Source: Gammaproteobacteria bacterium
GTDB lineage: Bacteria; Pseudomonadota; Gammaproteobacteria; Pseudomonadales; Halieaceae
Assembly: GCA_024742415.1 (NCBI GenBank)
Contig: JANSYN010000003.1
Span: 301,048-365,047, forward strand
DNA length: 64,000 bases
Direction of reading: 5' to 3'
Within the stretch, counting starts at the first letter, position 1. The number at the start of each line of letters is the position of its first letter. Of this stretch, positions 20,264 to 29,862 are shown piece by piece. The notes beneath the pieces were generated by a model. It had not been told where the DNA came from, made no database searches, and saw only the letters and a program-made list of their open reading frames with translations. The position numbers and the translations under genes are program-made.

Positions 20264-20785
20264 TTACATCGCCAACTGAGCCTGCAACCGGGCTTTCATC
20301 GGCAACACCCACTCTTGCTTGAGCTGCGCAGACAGCAGCCCGGCCTGTTCCAGCTCGTCGCAAAGGCGCATCTGGTGCGCCAGGTCAAACATGTCGAATT
20401 GCCGGCAAATCCTCGCATCGTCGTCGAGTGTGATAAATGAGATGCCTGGCGTCTCGTAAAAACTGCCGTCGGGCTTTTTGCCGGGACCGCGATTCATCCA
20501 GTGCGTGATCAGGTTGTTGGCACTGCCTGTGTAAACATCCATGTAGGGGAAGGTCCAGCCCTCCCATCCTACCTGCATATCGCGGCCGTAGTGTGTGGCT
20601 TTGATTTCGTCGATACCGTTCGCGGTAACGTTCATGACGCCCGCATACTCACAGGTATAGATACAGTCGACGGCATAGATTTCATCCACAAAAAAAGTCC
20701 ACTCGTTAGTTCTGGATGCCTGCTCGTGGGCCGCGATGAGTTTGCTGGCAGCGGCGCGCAGCACGTCGTCACTGAGTTTTTTCAT
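20264..20785 (-). CDS. SnoaL/NTF2-like protein
   Basis: 173 aa with an NTF2-like cone fold. The opening helix LAAHEQASRTNEWTFFVDEIYA... and the strands YTCEYAGVMNVTANGIDEIK and LITHWMNRGPGKKPDGSFYE fit the SnoaL-like group, which includes cyclases, isomerases and small hydratases. No diagnostic catalytic residue can be assigned. It lies 196 bases downstream of the epimerase/SDR operon on the same strand and may belong to the same pathway. Confidence 0.75.
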   Translation of the reverse strand: MKKLSDDVLRAAASKLIAAHEQASRTNEWTFFVDEIYAVDCIYTCEYAGVMNVTANGIDEIKATHYGRDMQVGWEGWTFPYMDVYTGSANNLITHWMNRGPGKKPDGSFYETPGISFITLDDDARICRQFDMFDLAHQMRLCDELEQAGLLSAQLKQEWVLPMKARLQAQLAM

Positions 20786-20981
20786 GCTGTTTTCTCCTGG
20801 CGTTGCCCCTGATGGTTAACCGCTCTACGCGCTGACGCGGGTATGCCACGGCCCATACAGGGGCCTGTCTATGACGCGTCACTTGTGCCGCACGCCATGA
20901 CTGGCGAATTGGGAAGGTATTTGCAACCGTGGCTAACCCCGGCTGTTCACAATTGCCCCCACAACACAGGCGACCATCGCC

Positions 20982-21872
20982 TCACAGATAGGCCTTGACG
21001 ACTTCGTCAACCGTTGCCGCAATGCAGTTACGCGAATAATCCAGTTCCCCTACCTCAGGCTCATAACTGACGGTAGCGTTGCGCCCGGCGTACATGATGA
21101 TGTCGGGGAACAACGGGTGTTCCTGCGTGGACACTGCGAGGTCCACCGGATTACCGGCGGCGTTGAAAAACAGTTCGAGGTAGGCCTTCCAGCTGAGGTT
21201 TTCATCGCCCACCAGATAGGCCTTACCGCCCTGTCCATGGTGCAACGCATTATGGATCGCTTCAGACATGGACTGGCTGCTGATGTGATTGACACCGCCC
21301 GCGGGTGCCACAACAGGCACCCCCTCGAGCCGACCTGCTGCGTAGTGTACCAGCGCTTCAAGGTGCGGCAGCGCAACGCCATCGACATGGCCGAGAATAA
21401 ACGGCGCGTTCAGGCTGCATACTGTGAAGCTGTCATCACTCAGCGCGCGCACGCCCTCGTCAGCGTGGAAGCGTGAGCGCACGTAGGGGCTGCTTTGGAT
21501 TTTGTTCGGAACGACCTGGGGGTAATAGGTGCCGATATACACGGCCCTGCGAACGCCAGCCTGCTTCGCGCGCGCAAAAAATTCGGGCACGCCCTTACTG
21601 TTAACCCGCTCAAAAAAAGCCGTGTCGTCCTCTGTGGGCGGCAGTTGGCGAATATCGGCACCAGCGGCAAACACCAGCGCGTCGTAGTCTTGCAACTGCA
21701 GGCCAGCGACGTCGTCGTCGAGATAACTGCCACGCACATGTGCAAACCCTTGCAGTGCTGGCACCGCGTTTGCTGAGCGTGAACACAGGGTTATCGTCAT
21801 ACCCTGTTGTTGCAGGTACAGCGCCGCGTGCGCACCCGTCAAACCTGTACCGCCTACCACCAATACCTTCAT
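20982..21872 (-). CDS. NAD(P)-dependent epimerase/dehydratase family protein
   Basis: 296 aa. Rossmann fold with MKVLVVGGTGLTGAHAALYL at the N-terminus. The extended-SDR Tyr lies in RAVYIGTYYPQV rather than in a clean YxxxK, so it could be an atypical or ligand-binding member. The C-terminal region (LSWKAYLELFFNAAGNPVDL) is typical of extended SDRs. Fifth gene of the operon running leftward from the HIBADH-like gene. Confidence 0.85.
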   Translation of the reverse strand: MKVLVVGGTGLTGAHAALYLQQQGMTITLCSRSANAVPALQGFAHVRGSYLDDDVAGLQLQDYDALVFAAGADIRQLPPTEDDTAFFERVNSKGVPEFFARAKQAGVRRAVYIGTYYPQVVPNKIQSSPYVRSRFHADEGVRALSDDSFTVCSLNAPFILGHVDGVALPHLEALVHYAAGRLEGVPVVAPAGGVNHISSQSMSEAIHNALHHGQGGKAYLVGDENLSWKAYLELFFNAAGNPVDLAVSTQEHPLFPDIIMYAGRNATVSYEPEVGELDYSRNCIAATVDEVVKAYL

Positions 21873-21924
21873 CGTGTATTACCCTGCTGCATGCGTGTTG
21901 CAAACCACCGCGAGCGCGACCGGC

Positions 21925-22746
21925 TCAGGAAATGCCGAGCAAGTCATCGCGTTGCCCCATGTAGACCTCGGCACAGTAGCCAAAATCGACGGGCAGGTTA
22001 TTGCCACTGATAAAGCCGCCCAACTTGCTGTTCAACATCACCAGCGCTTCCCCCATATCCTGGCCGGTGGCATAGCGGCCATTGGATGGAAGGAACAATT
22101 CCACGGCTTCATCGGGAATCTGCCCTTCCCCCTTGAGGGTTTTCATAAAGGCGCTGTCGGTGGGCGACGGTGCGATACAGTTGATACGAATACCACGTTG
22201 CGCCAGTGGCTTCGCCTGCGACATCGTATACACAATAATGCACTGCTTGGAAAATCCATACCCGTCCGGTACTGCATCGGTATGCTGGGTTAACCACTGC
22301 TGCGCGGTGGCCAGGGTGTTGTCCAGCGCCAGAAACTCACGAACTTTCGCCAGATTCGGCTTCCAACCCATACCGGCAGTGGAGGCGATAGACGCGATGC
22401 CGCTGCCATCGCTCATCCGTGGCAACAATGCCTCGGTGAGGTAGCGCAAACCTGAAAAATTTATCAGCACTGTATCGAGTGCGGCAAACGGTGGGCTGGG
22501 CACGCCTGCGCAATTGAACAGCCCGTAAATCTCATCCGGCAGGGCTTGCACCGCCGCATCCAGCGACGCGGCGTCTTTCATATCAACCCGCAGCGCCCGG
22601 GTAACCGGCACACTGACATCCGCAATATCAAGGGCATAAACGCTGGCGCCACAGTCCACCAGTAGCTGCGCGGCCGCCTGGCCCATACCCGAGGCCGCGC
22701 CGGTAACCACGACGTTCTTTCCGGTGTAACCCAATAAATCATTCAT
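21925..22746 (-). CDS. SDR oxidoreductase (3-alpha-hydroxysteroid/coniferyl-alcohol dehydrogenase type)
   Basis: 273 aa. Classical short-chain dehydrogenase: VVVTGAASGMGQAAAQLL for NAD binding, FNCAGVPSPP, and the active site DGYGFSKQCIIVYTM (Tyr and Lys). The insertion around TAQQWLTQHTDAVPDGYGFS before the active-site Tyr matches the 3-alpha-HSD/coniferyl-alcohol dehydrogenase subgroup. It likely oxidises a secondary or allylic alcohol. Operon member, 20 bases after the next SDR. Confidence 0.9.
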   Translation of the reverse strand: MNDLLGYTGKNVVVTGAASGMGQAAAQLLVDCGASVYALDIADVSVPVTRALRVDMKDAASLDAAVQALPDEIYGLFNCAGVPSPPFAALDTVLINFSGLRYLTEALLPRMSDGSGIASIASTAGMGWKPNLAKVREFLALDNTLATAQQWLTQHTDAVPDGYGFSKQCIIVYTMSQAKPLAQRGIRINCIAPSPTDSAFMKTLKGEGQIPDEAVELFLPSNGRYATGQDMGEALVMLNSKLGGFISGNNLPVDFGYCAEVYMGQRDDLLGIS

Positions 22747-22766
22747 GTTGTATGCCTTGCCAGTGA

Positions 22767-23558
22767 TTAATGTGTGTCAGGGGGATCAAAAAGTGTTTTG
22801 GGCGTGGCCACGTTGGGACGTATCTCCAGCAGGTCTACGGCCACGCCGGGCGGTTGCGCCAGCGCGTAACACACCGCCTGCGCCACCTGCGTTACATCCA
22901 TGCCCATATCCATGTGCGTGCCCACCGACTTCCACTGCTGCAGTGCGGCAGCGAATTTTTCTGCATCCCAGTCCTGTGAAAAATCGGTCAGTGCACCACC
23001 GGGCCGTATACAGGACACACCAATACGATCGCCCTGCAGTTCGACGCGCAGGTCGCGGCTGAAGCGCTCCACCGCCGCCTTGGTGGAGGCATAGATCGAC
23101 AGGTGCACCATTTCATCGTAGTGCCAGGCCGATGCCGACGACACATTGACGATGCGCGGGTTGTCGCCGCCGCGCAGTAGCGGAATGGCCGCCTGGCAGC
23201 AGTACACCGTGCCGAGAAAATTCGTGCTGACCTGCGCCATGACTTCATCGGCCAGCAATTCCTCTACGCGCCCCGGTCGCGCCATACCGGCATTGTTGAC
23301 CAGGCCATTGAGCTGGCCGAAGTGCGCATGAATGGCCTGCATGGCCTGCACCACCGCCGCGTGGTCGGCCACGTCGGCGCTGATACCCAGCGCCTGCTCC
23401 CTGCCCAGTGCGTCCACGGCCTTGTCCAGCGACTGCTGGCTGCGACCCAGTAAACCGACCCTGGCACCTTGCGCCACCAACTCGCGGGCAATCGCCAGGC
23501 CAAAGCCCCTGGAGCCTCCAGTGACTGCATACACGCGCCCCTGTAGCGCCTGGCTCAT
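22767..23558 (-). CDS. SDR family oxidoreductase
   Basis: 263 aa. Classical SDR: YAVTGGSRGFGLAIARELVA, LVNNAGMARPG, and the YASTKAAVERFSRDLR active site. NAD(P)-linked alcohol/ketone interconversion in the cytoplasm. Its start codon overlaps the aldehyde dehydrogenase stop (ATGA), so the two are coupled. The substrate is unknown. Confidence 0.92.
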   Translation of the reverse strand: MSQALQGRVYAVTGGSRGFGLAIARELVAQGARVGLLGRSQQSLDKAVDALGREQALGISADVADHAAVVQAMQAIHAHFGQLNGLVNNAGMARPGRVEELLADEVMAQVSTNFLGTVYCCQAAIPLLRGGDNPRIVNVSSASAWHYDEMVHLSIYASTKAAVERFSRDLRVELQGDRIGVSCIRPGGALTDFSQDWDAEKFAAALQQWKSVGTHMDMGMDVTQVAQAVCYALAQPPGVAVDLLEIRPNVATPKTLFDPPDTH

Positions 23559-25018
23559 TCAGCAATCGCTATTGTTTTGGTTTCAAGGTATTCCTCGAAG
23601 CCCTCAGGCCCCATTTCGCGCCCCAAACCACTTTGCTTATAGCCGCCAAAAGGCGCGTCCGCCCCGTAATACACGCCGCCGTTAACCGCCATGGTGCCGG
23701 TGCGAATCCTGCGCGCCACCGCAAGGGCACGATCGAGATCTGCCGACCACACGCCACCGGACAAACCATACTCCGAGTCATTGGCAATCCGTATCGCCTC
23801 TTCCTCGTCATCGTAGGGAATGATCGCGAGCACGGGGCCGAAGATTTCTTCTCGGGCAATGGTCATGTCGTTGGTGACGTCGGTAAACACCGTGGGCTCA
23901 ACCCAATAGCCCTTGTCGAGTGACTTTGGCGTTGCGCCGCCCATCAGCAGCCGCGCGCCCTCTGCCTTGCCTTTCTCTATGTAACCCAGCACACGTTCAC
24001 GCTGGCGAGCGTTGATCAGCGGGCCCATAATCTGCCCATCGGCCGATGGATCACCATACTGGATAAATTCAAAAAACGTCGGCAGCAGCTGCTCGACTTC
24101 CGCCTGGCGCGAACGTGGCACCAGCAGCCGCGTGAGAATCGCACAGCCCTGGCCCGCATGAAAACACACACCCAGGCAACTCAGCACAGCGCCGTTGATA
24201 TCAGCATCTTCAAGCATAATGTTGGCAGACTTGCCGCCCAGCTCCAGGAAGACTTTTTTCACGGTCTGCGCTGCGCGCGCCATGATGTGCTTGCCCACCG
24301 CGGTAGAGCCGGTAAAAGACACCATGTCGACCCGCGGATCGCAGACCAGCTGGTCGCCCACTTCTGCTGGGTCCTGTGCGGTGATCACATTGAACACGCC
24401 GGGCGGAATATCGGTGTATTCCTTCACAACACGGCCGAGCATGGTGGCTGACCAGGGCGTGTCCGGTGCTGCCTTGAGCACCACGGTGCAGCCCGCCGCA
24501 AGCGCGGGAATACATTTTGCCAGGTTTATCTGCAGCGGCACGTTCCAGGGCGTAACACAGGCCACGACGCCAACGGCTTCTTTCTCCACCAGACGGCGAC
24601 TGGTAATCCCCATTTTCACGGATTGGCCGGCATCGCGGCTCCAGGTAAACTCAGGCAGTGTCTCCAGGGTGTAATCGATAAAGCCAATCGGCAGATCGCA
24701 TTGTGGGCCCATCTCGCCGCAGATGAATAGCGGCGCGCCTGTTTCAGCAGAAATCTGCAGTTTGAAGTCTTCGCGAACCGCTTGCAGGCCATCGCGCAGC
24801 TGTGCGATGCACTTGTGCCGAAAGGCGTGATTGGTGGACCAGTCGGTCTCGTCAAATGCACGGCGCGCACTGGCGATCGCCCGGTCCATGTCTTGCGGCC
24901 CGGCGTCGGCCACTGCACCGATGACCTCTTCCGTGGCTGGATTGATATTGGGATACGTCTTGCCGGAGGCAGCGGCAACCAGCTCACCGTCGATAAAAAG
25001 ATTGGCTTCGGGGTTCAT
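23555..25018 (-). CDS. Aldehyde dehydrogenase (NAD-dependent)
   Basis: About 487 aa from the ATG at 25018 with AAGGA upstream; the track start at 25087 overlaps the preceding gene. Catalytic Glu in LELGGKSANIML and catalytic Cys in HAGQGCAILTRLLVP. The N-terminal segment MNPEANLFIDGELVAAASGK and the C-terminal PFGGYKQSGLGREMGPEG are standard. Oxidises an aldehyde to the acid; the SDRs beside it could supply the aldehyde. Second gene of the operon, 10 bases after the HIBADH-like gene. Confidence 0.95.
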   Translation of the reverse strand: MNPEANLFIDGELVAAASGKTYPNINPATEEVIGAVADAGPQDMDRAIASARRAFDETDWSTNHAFRHKCIAQLRDGLQAVREDFKLQISAETGAPLFICGEMGPQCDLPIGFIDYTLETLPEFTWSRDAGQSVKMGITSRRLVEKEAVGVVACVTPWNVPLQINLAKCIPALAAGCTVVLKAAPDTPWSATMLGRVVKEYTDIPPGVFNVITAQDPAEVGDQLVCDPRVDMVSFTGSTAVGKHIMARAAQTVKKVFLELGGKSANIMLEDADINGAVLSCLGVCFHAGQGCAILTRLLVPRSRQAEVEQLLPTFFEFIQYGDPSADGQIMGPLINARQRERVLGYIEKGKAEGARLLMGGATPKSLDKGYWVEPTVFTDVTNDMTIAREEIFGPVLAIIPYDDEEEAIRIANDSEYGLSGGVWSADLDRALAVARRIRTGTMAVNGGVYYGADAPFGGYKQSGLGREMGPEGFEEYLETKTIAIAE

Positions 25019-25028
25019 ACGAGGGTCC

Positions 25029-25919
25029 TTATTGCGCGGGAGGCCGGGATTCATCCCTGGCCAGGAAGACATCTTCAATTCGGTCACAGATAAACTGCGC
25101 CGTTGGCATCACCACGCCCTGTTGCGCCGCAGTACTCATCACGCACTCCATGTCTTTGCGCGCAAGGCTGCCGTGACCGCCAAAAAATTCCTGCATTTGT
25201 TCAGCGGTACAGGCCGGTGCAAGCGCGTTGCGACCACTGACAAACTGGTGCATCTGTGGGTTCACTACACCGTTGGACATACCCACCTCATGGATGACAT
25301 CGAGCGACAATCCGCAGGCCTGCGCCAGGCGGGCAGCTTCTGCCAGCGCCACAAACTCGGTGTACTGAATATAGTTATTGCATAACTTCAGTGCGATTCC
25401 GGCGCCGACGGGGCCTGCGTGGACGATTTTGTCCGCAGATGTTGCGAACACGGGCGTTACGGCCTCAAGATCCTCCTGGCTTCCGCCCACCATGTAGCAC
25501 AGCGTGCCCTCCTGTGCGCGGGCGGCACCGCCGGTGATTGGCGTATCCAGCAAGCGCAGGCCCTTGTCCTGCGCATCGGCTGCCCAGTTCAACAGGTGTG
25601 CCTGCACTACCGTGCTGTGAATCGCCACCACCGTGCCCGGCGCGGCATTAATCAGAATGCCCTCATCGCCATAGAGCAGTGCTTCCACCTGCGCGTCGTC
25701 ACGTACGCAGATACCGATATGCTCGCAGCTGCGCGCCAGTTCAACGACCGATGAACAAGCCCTTGCACCGAGAGTGACCAGTTCCTCCACCGATGCGCTC
25801 ACCAGGTCATAGACGTACGTCTCAAAGCGGTCGCACACGAGGTGCCTGGCCATCGGTTTACCGATATCACCGAGTCCAATAAAGCCTACTTTTTTTCGCT
25901 CGCCTTTTCGCTCGCCCAT
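25029..25919 (-). CDS. 3-hydroxyisobutyrate dehydrogenase family NAD(P)-oxidoreductase
   Basis: About 296 aa from the ATG at 25919, which has AGGA eight bases upstream. Rossmann motif VGFIGLGDIGKPMARHLV, substrate motif DTPITGGAARAQEGT and the catalytic-Lys region GIALKLCNNYIQY. Family members oxidise beta-hydroxyacids, and some act on related alcohols. It leads the leftward operon and is divergent from the tandem-MarR gene, so regulation by that protein is likely. Confidence 0.93.
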   Translation of the reverse strand: MGERKGERKKVGFIGLGDIGKPMARHLVCDRFETYVYDLVSASVEELVTLGARACSSVVELARSCEHIGICVRDDAQVEALLYGDEGILINAAPGTVVAIHSTVVQAHLLNWAADAQDKGLRLLDTPITGGAARAQEGTLCYMVGGSQEDLEAVTPVFATSADKIVHAGPVGAGIALKLCNNYIQYTEFVALAEAARLAQACGLSLDVIHEVGMSNGVVNPQMHQFVSGRNALAPACTAEQMQEFFGGHGSLARKDMECVMSTAAQQGVVMPTAQFICDRIEDVFLARDESRPPAQ

Positions 25920-26182
25920 GGTGACCATCCTGCACTGATGTAACGTTGTTATTGTTGATCGGACGCTGGCTGTCCTGGCGTCCATGCCTGTGATGCCGAT
26001 CCTGCAACGCCCTCATAGCCATTGTTGAAAGCGTTCTTGCGGCCGCCTCGGAGGCTGCTTGAGAAGCCCGCCGCCATCAAGGAAGCGCCATGGTGCTCGG
26101 GCTCGCAACTTGGGCAGTGGCAGTCAACGCTGCCTGGACGCCGCTTGCTCCGAAAGTGTAGACGCGCCCTGAACATCATGTC
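25920..26182. other. Intergenic segment upstream of the HIBADH-type operon
   Basis: With the operator beside it, this makes a 308-base gap between divergent genes. No supported ORF. It presumably holds the leftward operon promoter, but no convincing -35/-10 pair stands out. Confidence 0.4.
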
Positions 26183-26219
26183 AACACAGATTGACTACCC
26201 GTCAATTTGTGTTTACTAT
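26183..26219 (+). promoter_or_regulatory. Promoter and operator of the tandem-MarR gene
   Basis: AACACAGATTGAC (26183-26195), five bases, GTCAATTTGTGTT (26201-26213): 13-base arms with one mismatch. A promoter is embedded in it: TTGACT (26191-26196), 17 bases, TACTAT (26214-26219). A protein bound to the inverted repeat would cover the -35 box and spacer, so autorepression by the MarR product is the natural reading. The predicted transcription start (about 26226) is nearly at the ATG (26228), so the mRNA may be leaderless. Confidence 0.75.
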
Positions 26220-26227
26220 TTTTGCCA

Positions 26228-27337
26228 ATGAGCGCATCCATTCCCCCACACTCCGGCGCCGCCAACGGCTCTGCCACCGGCGCGGGCGACCGCCACGTCA
26301 AGGCTGCACAGGACAGCTACCGTGACAACTTCTCACGGCATCTGATTGGTGTTTCACGCTATTTGCAAACGCGCATGATGACAACACTGCAGCGCGACTA
26401 TCACCACAACAACCTGCGACTTGGCTTTGCCCCCTACCTGATCCTGGTGGGACAACAGGGGCAGCGCCTGTCACAGCTGGCCGACACACTGGGTATTTCG
26501 CGTCAGGCCTGCAACCAGGCCGTCAAGCAGATCGAACAGGCCGGCTACCTGAAGCGCTCCTCAGATCCCGGCGATGGTCGCGCCAAGCAAGTAACGCTCA
26601 CGCCAGCCGGCGAGAAACTGCGTCGTGACGGCGCCCTCATCGTGGGTGAACTGGACACCCAGTTCGCCGCCATTGCCGGTACCCGGCAGGTCCAGGCGGC
26701 GGCGAAAACCCTGGGACAGCTGCACAAACACCTGCGGCTCGGCCAAAGCCCGGGCGAGCCGCGCCCGTTCCTGTACGGCGGCCTTGGTGGCCTGCTGCCA
26801 CGATTATCCGATTACATTAACCAACGCCTGATGCAGCTGACCATCGCCAGGGGCCACCCCAGCCTTAAACTGGCCTTCGGACAGGTACTGACCCTGATAG
26901 GCCCTGCCGGTGGACGCATCCAGCAGATGGCAGTGATGCAGGATGTCAGCAAGCAGGCGATCAGCGCCATCACCATGGAGCTGGAAGCACTGGGGTACCT
27001 GCGCCGCGAGCAGGACCCACAGGACGCACGGCAAATCGTGCTGTTCTTTACACCGCAGGGTGCAACCCTTATCGCGGACTCCGTCAGCAGCGTATCTGAT
27101 TTACGAGCGGAGTTCGTCGACATCGTGGGTGAGTCCGCCATGCATAAAACGACCAGTACGCTACGCACGCTCTATCACGGCTTCGGCCTGGAGAGCGAGA
27201 TATTCAATCACGGCAATACGACAGATATCCAACAGCTCGCGCAGCAACTGCGGGCGCGACTGGATGCAAGCGACTGTCACGCGCTTGGCAATTTACTGCT
27301 CCGTACAACAGGCAATGGCACGCAACAATTGAGGTGA
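26228..27337 (+). CDS. Tandem double-MarR transcriptional regulator
   Basis: About 369 aa from the ATG at 26228; the track start is a TTG within the operator. It holds two winged-helix MarR domains in one chain. The first, about residues 55-150, includes LSQLADTLGISRQACNQAVK and a wing SSDPGDGRAKQVTLTPAGE. The second, about 215-330, includes IQQMAVMQDVSKQAISAITM and a wing EQDPQDARQIVLFFTPQG. Ordinary MarR proteins are about 150 aa and dimerise; this one looks like a covalent dimer. It starts an operon with the hydroxylase gene (10 bases downstream) and likely controls the divergent operon too. Confidence 0.88.
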   Translation: MSASIPPHSGAANGSATGAGDRHVKAAQDSYRDNFSRHLIGVSRYLQTRMMTTLQRDYHHNNLRLGFAPYLILVGQQGQRLSQLADTLGISRQACNQAVKQIEQAGYLKRSSDPGDGRAKQVTLTPAGEKLRRDGALIVGELDTQFAAIAGTRQVQAAAKTLGQLHKHLRLGQSPGEPRPFLYGGLGGLLPRLSDYINQRLMQLTIARGHPSLKLAFGQVLTLIGPAGGRIQQMAVMQDVSKQAISAITMELEALGYLRREQDPQDARQIVLFFTPQGATLIADSVSSVSDLRAEFVDIVGESAMHKTTSTLRTLYHGFGLESEIFNHGNTTDIQQLAQQLRARLDASDCHALGNLLLRTTGNGTQQLR

Positions 27338-27347
27338 GGTATCGGGT

Positions 27348-28076
27348 ATGAACAACGAATGGGTTATGGCAGTTTGGGAGCACTACAATATTCTGGCATC
27401 CGCCATCGCACTGGCTGCCATTGTAGTGATTACCAAGGTCGGCAAGTGGGCAGTATTCAAGGTGCCCGCGCTGAGCGAAACGCGCGAGCAAAATCGTGCC
27501 GAAGACAAGATCAAATGGAAAAAAGACAAGTACCCTCCAATGGTGCGCGGCACGCAGAAGATGGGCCTGTATTGCAATGTCACCTTCTATGCGCTGGTGT
27601 TGCCCTTTTGCCTGACGATGCAGGCACAGCCCGTCTGGAAGGTGCTGCTTGACGTGTTCGTGATCCTGATGTTCTACGACTTCTTTTACTATCTGTCACA
27701 TCGCTTCTGGTTCCACGGCAACGGCAAGATGCGCCAGATACATGCCGTGCACCATCAGGCGCGCAATCCCACCTACCTGGATGCGCACTATGTGCATCCC
27801 ACAGAAACCTTCATTGGCCTGGCCCTGTACATCGGCTCAATTGCTGTACTTGCTGCCGTGATGGGCAAGTTTCATGTTGCCACGGTTGTCATTACGTCGA
27901 TTGTTTTCTACCAGTTGAACCAGATCAATCACACGGCGGTGAACCTACCCAGGTTCCCCTACCGGGCACTCACTTGGATTACCGCCAAGCATCACGTCCA
28001 CCATGAGAATATGCACAAGGGTAATTACGCGACCATTACGCTGTTCTACGACAAGATTTTTGGCACTCTCGACTAG
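27348..28076 (+). CDS. Sterol desaturase/fatty acid hydroxylase family membrane di-iron enzyme
   Basis: 242 aa with about four membrane helices. All His boxes are present: HRFWFH, HAVHHQ and HHVHHENMHKGNYA, plus HPTET and NHTA. These ligands hold a di-iron centre on the cytoplasmic face. Family members hydroxylate or desaturate C-H bonds of lipids, sterols or carotenoids. It follows the MarR gene by 10 bases and precedes a CMD-family gene, so it is probably induced by the ligand sensed by the MarR protein. Confidence 0.93.
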   Translation: MNNEWVMAVWEHYNILASAIALAAIVVITKVGKWAVFKVPALSETREQNRAEDKIKWKKDKYPPMVRGTQKMGLYCNVTFYALVLPFCLTMQAQPVWKVLLDVFVILMFYDFFYYLSHRFWFHGNGKMRQIHAVHHQARNPTYLDAHYVHPTETFIGLALYIGSIAVLAAVMGKFHVATVVITSIVFYQLNQINHTAVNLPRFPYRALTWITAKHHVHHENMHKGNYATITLFYDKIFGTLD

Positions 28077-28148
28077 CACGCCGCGAACTACCCATCACCC
28101 GTTACAGCGCCGCCCTGTTGCAGCGGCGCACTTGCCCAGGAGAAGCAC

Positions 28149-28529
28149 ATGAGTGACCCGGAACGCCGCGCACGTGGCGAAGCAATGATCAACGAAGTCT
28201 ATGCAGGCGACGTGGTCGTCCCGCCTGAGGGCTACGCTTTCACCGATGTAATGCTAAGCCAGCTGTTTGCCGAGCTGTGGACGCGTGACACCCTGAGCAT
28301 GCGCGACAAACGCATACTCCTGCTGGGCATCATCGCCGAGAAAGGCGAATCAATGACGTTCAAGATTCAGGTCAAGGCGTCCCTCAAGCGCGGGGAAATA
28401 ACACCGGATGAAGCCCGCGAATTCCTGCTTTTTATCGCGCAGTATGCGGGCTATCCACGGGCGGCCTCCATGCTCGGCCCGTGCGAGGAAGCGATTGCAG
28501 AGTTCGAAAAAGAACGCGCCGACGACTAA
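28149..28529 (+). CDS. Carboxymuconolactone decarboxylase (CMD) family protein
   Basis: 126 aa, all-helical CMD fold. The core LSMRDKRILLLGIIAEKGES is followed by LKRGEITPDEAREFLLFIAQ, as in the gamma-CMD/AhpD group. The Cys of the AhpD CxxC motif is not present here, so peroxidase activity is unlikely. Last gene of the MarR/hydroxylase operon. The stop codon lies in the first unit of a 17-bp tandem duplication. Confidence 0.88.
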   Translation: MSDPERRARGEAMINEVYAGDVVVPPEGYAFTDVMLSQLFAELWTRDTLSMRDKRILLLGIIAEKGESMTFKIQVKASLKRGEITPDEAREFLLFIAQYAGYPRAASMLGPCEEAIAEFEKERADD

Positions 28530-28583: not shown

Positions 28584-28607
28584 AGCAGCCTGACTAGGCT
28601 GCTTTTT
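28584..28607 (+). terminator. Rho-independent terminator after the MarR/hydroxylase/CMD operon
   Basis: AGCAGCCT-GACT-AGGCTGCT followed by TTTT: an 8-bp perfect stem, a 4-base loop and a T-run on the plus strand. It overlaps the last codons and the stop of the convergent P450 gene. Confidence 0.9.
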
Positions 28608-29862
28608 CCGTTTTCTTCTGCTCGGGGTCAAACGTAATCTTCATGCTCTTGATGCCGTTCACCAGGTTGGAGCGCGTATAGCGGATTTCTTCGGCGAGCC
28701 TGGGGTTGCGCAGGCGTGGAATGATCTCCTCGAACATCACCTGTACTTCCAATCGCGCCAGGTGGGTGCCCAGGCAGAAATGCTGCCCGATACCGAACGC
28801 GCGGTGCTCGTTGTACATATTCGGCATTTTCTCGGGGCGGCGTACATCAAACTCCATGGCGTCATCACCAAAGATCGTTTCATCATGGTTGACGGTGTGA
28901 TAGTGCATGATGATCTTGTCGCCCTTCTTGATCAGCTTGCCACCGACTTCGGTGTCTTCCAGGCACTGCCGGCGCATCAGGATAAACGCCGTGTTGTAAC
29001 GAATCATCTCTTCAGTCGCCCCGGCAATTTTATCGGGGTTGTCCACCAGGTATTGCAGTTGGTCGGGGTGATCCATCAGCAGGCGCATACCATGGCTGGT
29101 AATGGTGCGCGTGGATTCATTGCCCGCTGCAATCAACAGCAGGAAGAACCACACGAACTCTTCGTCGGTCAGACCCTCAACCCCGCCGTGTCCGCGCAGC
29201 AGCGCGCCGACGATGTTGTCCTCGGGGTTGTCCTTGTGCATCTCTGCCAGTTTCATCGCATAGGCGATCACGTTGGCGGAGGCCTCTTCAGCGGCCTGCT
29301 GATCCTCGGCCATTTCCGAGTCCTGGTTGAACATCATTGCGTTGGTCCATTCGAAGAAATCCTTGCGGTCCTCCGCTGGAACGCCACACAGTTCGAGGAT
29401 CGCAAGCAACGGCAGTTCCGCTGCTACCTCCTCCACAAACTCACACTCGCCACGGGACGCAACGCGATCAACAATATTGCGCGCATGCTGGCGGAAACGT
29501 TCCTCATAAGAGCCGACCGCGCTGGGCGTAAAGGCAGCGCGCACAATCTTGCGATACTTGAGCTGGCGTGGCGGATCCATGTTGATGATCATGTGGTTGT
29601 GGATGCCCTTGATCTCTTCCTCGGACCACTCTTCAGCAAGCGCCGTATTGGTCTCGCTGGAGAACAGCTGCGGATGCTTCGAGATAAAGTCGATTTCATC
29701 GCGCCCTGTGACCAACCAGTAAGGCACGCCCTGGTAGGAATCGCTCATCCAGTGGATCGGTCCCGACGCTCGAATATCCTTGAGCACGTCGTAGGGCATA
29801 CCCTCTTCATAGGTTTGCGGGTCAATCATGTTGGGAAAGTTGGCAAACGGACATCCGCTCAT
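28594..29862 (-). CDS. Cytochrome P450 (soluble bacterial class)
   Basis: About 422 aa from the ATG at 29862 (MSGCPFAN) with GGAGA upstream. I-helix oxygen-activation motif AAGNESTRT, K-helix EEMIR, and heme-thiolate loop FGIGQHFCLGTHLARLE. In family terms it resembles the CYP125/CYP142-like group that oxidises sterol or terpenoid side chains, but subfamily cannot be fixed here. It needs a ferredoxin and reductase that are not encoded next to it. Promoter and operator are described separately; the gene appears monocistronic. Confidence 0.95.
   Translation of the reverse strand: MSGCPFANFPNMIDPQTYEEGMPYDVLKDIRASGPIHWMSDSYQGVPYWLVTGRDEIDFISKHPQLFSSETNTALAEEWSEEEIKGIHNHMIINMDPPRQLKYRKIVRAAFTPSAVGSYEERFRQHARNIVDRVASRGECEFVEEVAAELPLLAILELCGVPAEDRKDFFEWTNAMMFNQDSEMAEDQQAAEEASANVIAYAMKLAEMHKDNPEDNIVGALLRGHGGVEGLTDEEFVWFFLLLIAAGNESTRTITSHGMRLLMDHPDQLQYLVDNPDKIAGATEEMIRYNTAFILMRRQCLEDTEVGGKLIKKGDKIIMHYHTVNHDETIFGDDAMEFDVRRPEKMPNMYNEHRAFGIGQHFCLGTHLARLEVQVMFEEIIPRLRNPRLAEEIRYTRSNLVNGIKSMKITFDPEQKKTEKAA

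Follow-up and report, generated by a model that had tools for sequence, protein, structure and literature searches.

A double-MarR regulator and its predicted paired-palindrome operator between divergent redox operons in the Halieaceae

The window analysed here, a stretch of 64,000 nucleotides from a gammaproteobacterium of the family Halieaceae (assembly GCA_024742415.1, contig JANSYN010000003.1, positions 301,048 to 365,047), carries on its forward strand a gene (26228–27337) encoding a putative repressor of 369 amino acids, with an N-terminal (26318–26743) and a C-terminal (26771–27217) MarR domain. The start of this gene was corrected to the ATG at 26228, which is kept 9–11 nt past the second of the two operator palindromes described below in 25 of 26 relatives. 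The first start in the mechanical list of open reading frames, the TTG at 26207, was rejected, because it falls inside the operator and the starts of the relatives fit the ATG. The Pfam family MarR_2 matched two stretches of the protein (1.7e-10 and 1.1e-6 for the separate halves), with a score of 66.3 bits against PF12802 for the whole chain (cut-off 27) and of 41.3 and 29.1 bits for the halves alone, both above the cut-off. Aligned over 126 amino acids, the halves share 33% identity. The original prediction of two winged-helix MarR domains in a single chain was thus confirmed. No curated single-function family claims the protein: the best NCBIfam match was BilQ (54.3 bits, cut-off 125), and scores fell below the equivalog cut-offs for BilQ, Saro_0803, HpaR, SlyA, MarR and OhrR. 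It also lies outside the SarA sequence family (TIGR01889, 22.1 bits against a cut-off of 62.6; PF22381, 23.4 against 27).

In the tree of individual MarR domains, the N-terminal and C-terminal halves of the 26 relatives adjoined each other, apart from the other MarR proteins of the same genomes (support values 90/84), except for long-branch rows of unsure placement. The simplest history consistent with this topology would be one internal duplication that preceded the diversification of the family. Other Halieaceae proteins with two MarR domains per chain (open frames of 314–403 amino acids) were represented by two types, L067/L068 (G018:C69:3000-6500 and G031:C10:430000-433500) and L069/L070 (G022:C16:77500-80800 and G035:C340:5000-7500). 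They occupied separate branches of the domain tree, with different recognition helices, and inspection of their upstream stretches by eye revealed no GTCAA doublet. Judging from these branches, the fusion of MarR domains seems to have been repeated within the Halieaceae. The earlier view that fused MarR dimers are uncommon is therefore only partly right, given at least two separately arisen double-MarR families in the Halieaceae and a solved precedent, SarS. In the literature, searches on MarR fusions and tandem MarR proteins yielded nothing relevant.

The recognition helices of the N-terminal domain (26501–26539, forward strand; residues 92–104, RQACNQAVKQIEQ) and of the C-terminal domain (26951–26989, forward strand; residues 242–254, KQAISAITMELEA) are both helical in the AlphaFold model. 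In the alignment of the 26 relatives, Q93-A94 and D116/R118 were invariant in the first domain, with N96 and Q97 nearly so, and S241-K242-Q243-A244 and D266/R268-Q269 were invariant in the second; R92 is the counterpart of K242 in the first. The Q-A pair is common to both helices, and each wing has an invariant arginine. The regulator therefore consists of two homologous halves, each retaining its recognition and wing residues, as expected of a two-halved pseudo-dimer. Each domain has a recognition helix of its own, as had been proposed, and neither has lost its DNA-binding residues in the 26 relatives. The model, which was built from five sequences and has a modest mean pLDDT of 69.5, shows the full MarR topology in each half, with helices and wing in the usual order. 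The C-terminal extension of the protein is conserved among the relatives and is modelled as two helices (334–344 and 347–358). The best fold match in the PDB was SarS (1P4X), aligned over both domains, but the overall fit was poor (TM 0.26–0.35, rmsd 11) and the relative placement of the domains differed. The geometry of a covalent pseudo-dimer is thus a candidate arrangement.

The genes on either side of the regulator are its putative targets. The divergent operon, on the reverse strand, begins with a 3-hydroxyisobutyrate-dehydrogenase-like gene (25029–25919; Pfam NAD_binding_2/NAD_binding_11), a conserved neighbour, followed by an aldehyde dehydrogenase (23555–25018; Pfam Aldedh), for which the best NCBIfam match, TIGR04284 aldehy_Rv0768, scored 687 bits, below the cut-off of 775. 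The rest of the run on this strand (20264–23558), which is likely to be co-transcribed, comprises two SDRs, an NAD-dependent epimerase-like gene (Pfam) and a gene of 173 codons without a Pfam match, in an order conserved in the relatives. On the forward strand, 10 nt past the regulator and co-directional with it, lies an enzyme of the fatty acid hydroxylase/sterol desaturase superfamily (27348–28076; Pfam FA_hydroxylase, 2.5e-21), the most constant neighbour among the relatives. This rightward operon ends with a 126-amino acid carboxymuconolactone-decarboxylase-like protein (28149–28529), also a conserved neighbour, with a weak similarity to PcaC (2.8e-10) that lies below the cut-off. Pfam assignments and the conserved neighbourhood both agree with the predicted location of the regulator between two operons of redox enzymes. 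We take this gene set (20264–28529, together with 28594–29862) to resemble the aldA/cyp123 region of Mycobacterium tuberculosis (Rv0766c-Rv0771) in its 3-hydroxyisobutyrate-dehydrogenase-like protein, Rv0768-type aldehyde dehydrogenase, SDR, carboxymuconolactone-decarboxylase-like protein and P450, the similarity to TIGR04284 being the sole point of this likeness compared by sequence.

The predicted operator in front of the regulator gene consists of two tandem 16-bp palindromes separated by 5 bp, such that their centres are 21 bp apart, or two helical turns. The first (site 1, 26180–26195) has the form GTCAA-N6-TTGAC, here GTCAA-CACAGA-TTGAC, and is found upstream of 25 of the 26 relatives; the second (site 2, 26201–26216) has the form GTCAA-N6-TTTAC, here GTCAA-TTTGTG-TTTAC. 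Both palindromes were present at exactly the 21-bp spacing in 25 of the 26 relatives, the outer ones departing from them by one or two bases. The diverged relative in genome G023 has a degenerate doublet with a 22-bp spacing, and three further weak relatives have no doublet. In a diverged group of paralogues of the regulator, represented by L138 (G459:C87) and L142 (G457:C197), the upstream regions have another motif, GACAATAACGACAAT followed by a half of the GTTTAC or GGTTAC type, with no complete first palindrome; it is possible that the operator changed together with the regulator in these cases.

The same DNA had been described as a 31-bp inverted repeat with 13-base arms, and this repeat is real: AACACAGATTGAC (26183–26195) and GTCAATTTGTGTT (26201–26213) pair with one mismatch, and the repeat finder lengthened the arms to 16 nt (26180–26216, 88% complementary). 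In the source species, the inner hexamers of the two sites are complementary to each other at five of six positions, as would be expected if the long dyad were a single operator bound by one fused dimer. Across 25 species, however, the mean complementarity of the inner bases was 2.64 of 6, against 2.36 of 6 between different genomes. Since these bases match hardly better within than between genomes, the 31-bp dyad is not the conserved unit. The six inner bases vary freely among relatives and the pentamers are kept in each palindrome, and we consider the single long operator very improbable. The conserved unit is instead the pair of tandem 16-bp palindromes: of the long operator originally proposed to match the double regulator, the overlap with the promoter stands, and the single element is replaced by two separate palindromes 21 bp apart. 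The two sites themselves differ in nearly all relatives, TTGAC in site 1 corresponding to TTTAC in site 2. The T of TTTAC is probably the first base of a −10 hexamer, TACTAT, rather than the mark of a damaged half-site; it is also kept at doublets such as L119 and L120, where we detected no convincing rightward gene, so that the −10 hexamer accounts for it only in part.

MarR genes often adjoin divergent targets, and their operators overlap the target promoters. The locus has this layout, with the doublet located between divergent operons and site 1 providing the predicted −35 region of two back-to-back promoters. The predicted promoter of the regulator, TTGACT-N17-TACTAT, lies inside the doublet, in agreement with the overlap of promoter and operator anticipated previously. 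Its −35 box (26191–26196, forward strand) is formed by the right half of site 1, in which TTGAC was present in 24 of 26 relatives, and its −10 box (26214–26219, forward strand) overlaps site 2, TACTAT or a close variant being found at N17 in all 26. For the leftward enzyme operon, the predicted −35 box TTGACA (26179–26184, reverse strand) coincides with the left, conserved half of site 1, and is followed after a spacer of 18 by a −10 box, TACACT (26155–26160, reverse strand). Of the 23 relatives in which a cluster gene lies divergently, 22 have a leftward −10-like hexamer (at least 4/6 matches, spacer of 16–18 bp), and the three that lack such a gene have none, but this element is weak and, for single genomes, mostly no better than in shuffled sequences.

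The end of the −10 hexamer lies only 6–8 nt from the ATG of the regulator in 25 of 26 relatives, and no Shine-Dalgarno-like 4-mer precedes the regulator start in any of the 26. The mRNA of the regulator is, for these two reasons, predicted to be leaderless, probably with its 5′ end at or within a few nucleotides of the ATG; a leaderless mRNA begins no more than about 5 nt from its start codon, and the geometry here predicts such a start. A Shine-Dalgarno-like 4-mer was present before all four hydroxylase starts placed under the same doublet elsewhere, which suggests that leaderless translation may be restricted to the regulator and that hydroxylase genes under this doublet are ordinary in this respect.

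In the 4.1-Mb home genome, the 37-bp doublet was unique at up to three mismatches, so that the regulon search yielded no second copy, and the reversed control gave no match. The only other exact copy of a single palindrome (C12:409129) was rejected as a regulon member: it is within chance expectation, since a pattern with ten fixed bases should match about four times in a genome of 4.1 Mb. Among 140 Halieaceae genomes, the doublet was found in 40 (reversed control pattern, 0 matches) and the regulator in 42. They occurred together in 38 genomes, or 39 if truncation at a contig end is counted, a co-occurrence with a Fisher p value of 3e-27 that is uncorrected for relatedness, the relatives sharing ancestry and the genome counts not being independent. 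In one of the two doublet-only genomes (G003), the contig ends inside the regulator gene, just past the operator; in the other (G464), the match is weak and reads both ways. In the four regulator-only genomes, the copies are diverged, with E-values of 1e-42 to 1e-109. A search that allowed any gap from 0 to 30 between the palindromes gave 33 distinct doublets in the family; 31 of them had a gap of 5, and the two exceptions were in genomes lacking the regulator. These exceptions are GTCAA-N6-TTGAC pairs with gaps of 12 (G467:C1:2335668-2335711) and 24 (G428:C61:8960-9015), and are possibly operators of another factor, or chance matches. A class-wide search of 369 gammaproteobacterial genomes revealed no other holder of the regulator at E≤1e-40, and two actinobacterial loci from the protein scan (L007/L008) were discarded as ordinary one-domain MarRs. 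No similar operator was seen by eye upstream of single-domain MarR paralogues (about 175–213 amino acids).

Rearranged genomes bear on the extent of the regulon. As the promoter of the regulator lies wholly inside the doublet in nearly all relatives and the leftward −10 box is weak, the doublet could be read as the regulator's own promoter, for autorepression only, with the divergent operon under other control. This reading is contradicted by 12 of the 13 doublets not located directly before the regulator, which directly precede homologues of the cluster enzymes (six dehydrogenase, two aldehyde dehydrogenase and four hydroxylase genes) away from the regulator, and we regard it as hardly credible. 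The doublet follows the enzymes, and not only the regulator, in these sequences, and these relocated copies support the original suggestion that the regulator probably governs both operons. On the opposite side of some of them lies a gene for a Rieske oxygenase or one for a luciferase-like oxidoreductase. At two loci, L117 (position 11532, G031) and L125 (position 11671, G525), the doublet is flanked by the dehydrogenase gene on one side and, on the other, by a Rieske oxygenase with weak similarity to the 4beta-methylsterol monooxygenase SdmA, which is at most a hint that the substrate is sterol- or terpenoid-like.

MarR-family proteins bind a palindrome of about 16–20 bp as a dimer of two winged helices, and repression relieved by a ligand is usual among them. 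We consider it likely that the regulator is a ligand-responsive covalent MarR pseudo-dimer, with one chain per palindrome, that represses itself and both neighbouring operons. Each chain would read one 16-bp palindrome, with one winged helix per half-site, and two chains would be neighbours on one face of the DNA, two turns apart. Protein on site 1 would mask both divergent −35 boxes, protein on site 2 would mask the regulator's own −10 box, and RNA polymerase would thereby be kept off both promoters. Since site 1 provides both −35 boxes and site 2 overlaps the −10 box of the regulator, repression of both operons together with autorepression, rather than activation, is the best reading. Release of the repressor would be triggered by an inducer, which is probably a compound of the adjacent oxidation pathway, either substrate or intermediate, and would switch on both the leftward dehydrogenase operon and the rightward operon of regulator and hydroxylase. 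A leaderless mRNA may hold the yield of repressor low.

The presence of two separate palindromes implies that there are probably two regulator chains per operator. These chains might themselves dimerise or oligomerise, placing four winged helices on four half-sites, the doublet then being one operator for one dimer of chains. The spacing between the palindromes, as rigid as the sites themselves (gap of 5 in 31 of 33 doublets), is in keeping with such an assembly, for which the conserved helices of the C-terminal extension could provide an additional dimerisation element. Nevertheless, this rigidity is also explained by the promoter inside the doublet, whose spacing is fixed at 17 bp; MarR dimerisation, which involves the N- and C-terminal helices (PMC9892617), could be satisfied by two tandem domains within one chain; and SarS has been reported to be a larger, non-dimeric protein whose two halves are homologous (PMC10715151). 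We therefore judge a dimer of chains to be unlikely and favour one chain on each palindrome.

In about 40 genomes, the regulator can be paired with its predicted operator and targets, making it possible to test why a MarR dimer became covalent. A covalent fusion allows the two readers to differ, and sites 1 and 2 do differ in nearly all relatives. More tentatively, the two readers of the covalent pseudo-dimer could be non-identical and could require both palindromes, locked at 21 bp, with the first site acting as the −35 region of two promoters and with a conserved leaderless repressor transcript alongside ordinary leaders on the targets. For marine bacteria, the doublet can also serve as a search string to define the regulon of what is an uncharacterised oxidation pathway. 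If true, the conservation of a leaderless start for the repressor in many species of one proteobacterial family would be a natural case for the study of leaderless translation.

Precedents are known for a covalent MarR-like pair (SarS) and for paired palindromes at divergent promoters (MexR); what is new, with good support, is that the two are combined, together with a spacing locked strictly at 21 bp, half-sites of one palindrome that supply the −35 boxes of both promoters, and a start that is probably leaderless. SarS, a member of the SarA family from Staphylococcus aureus, resembles the regulator in that its single chain comprises two MarR-like winged-helix halves homologous to each other. 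However, the two proteins have no close sequence relationship and different regulons, and their domain arrangements superpose poorly. The regulator also has a C-terminal extension, a defined pair of palindromes and a local metabolic regulon, unlike SarS. MexR of Pseudomonas aeruginosa is, like the regulator, a MarR-family protein with two sites, formed by palindromic pentamer half-sites, that overlap both its own promoter and that of the operon under its control, with one dimer bound to each of the PI and PII operators (PMC9892617). It is, by contrast, a homodimer of a one-domain chain, its half-sites are GTTGA-N5-TCAAC rather than GTCAA-N6-TTGAC, and it controls an efflux pump, whereas the regulator described here adjoins a redox pathway.
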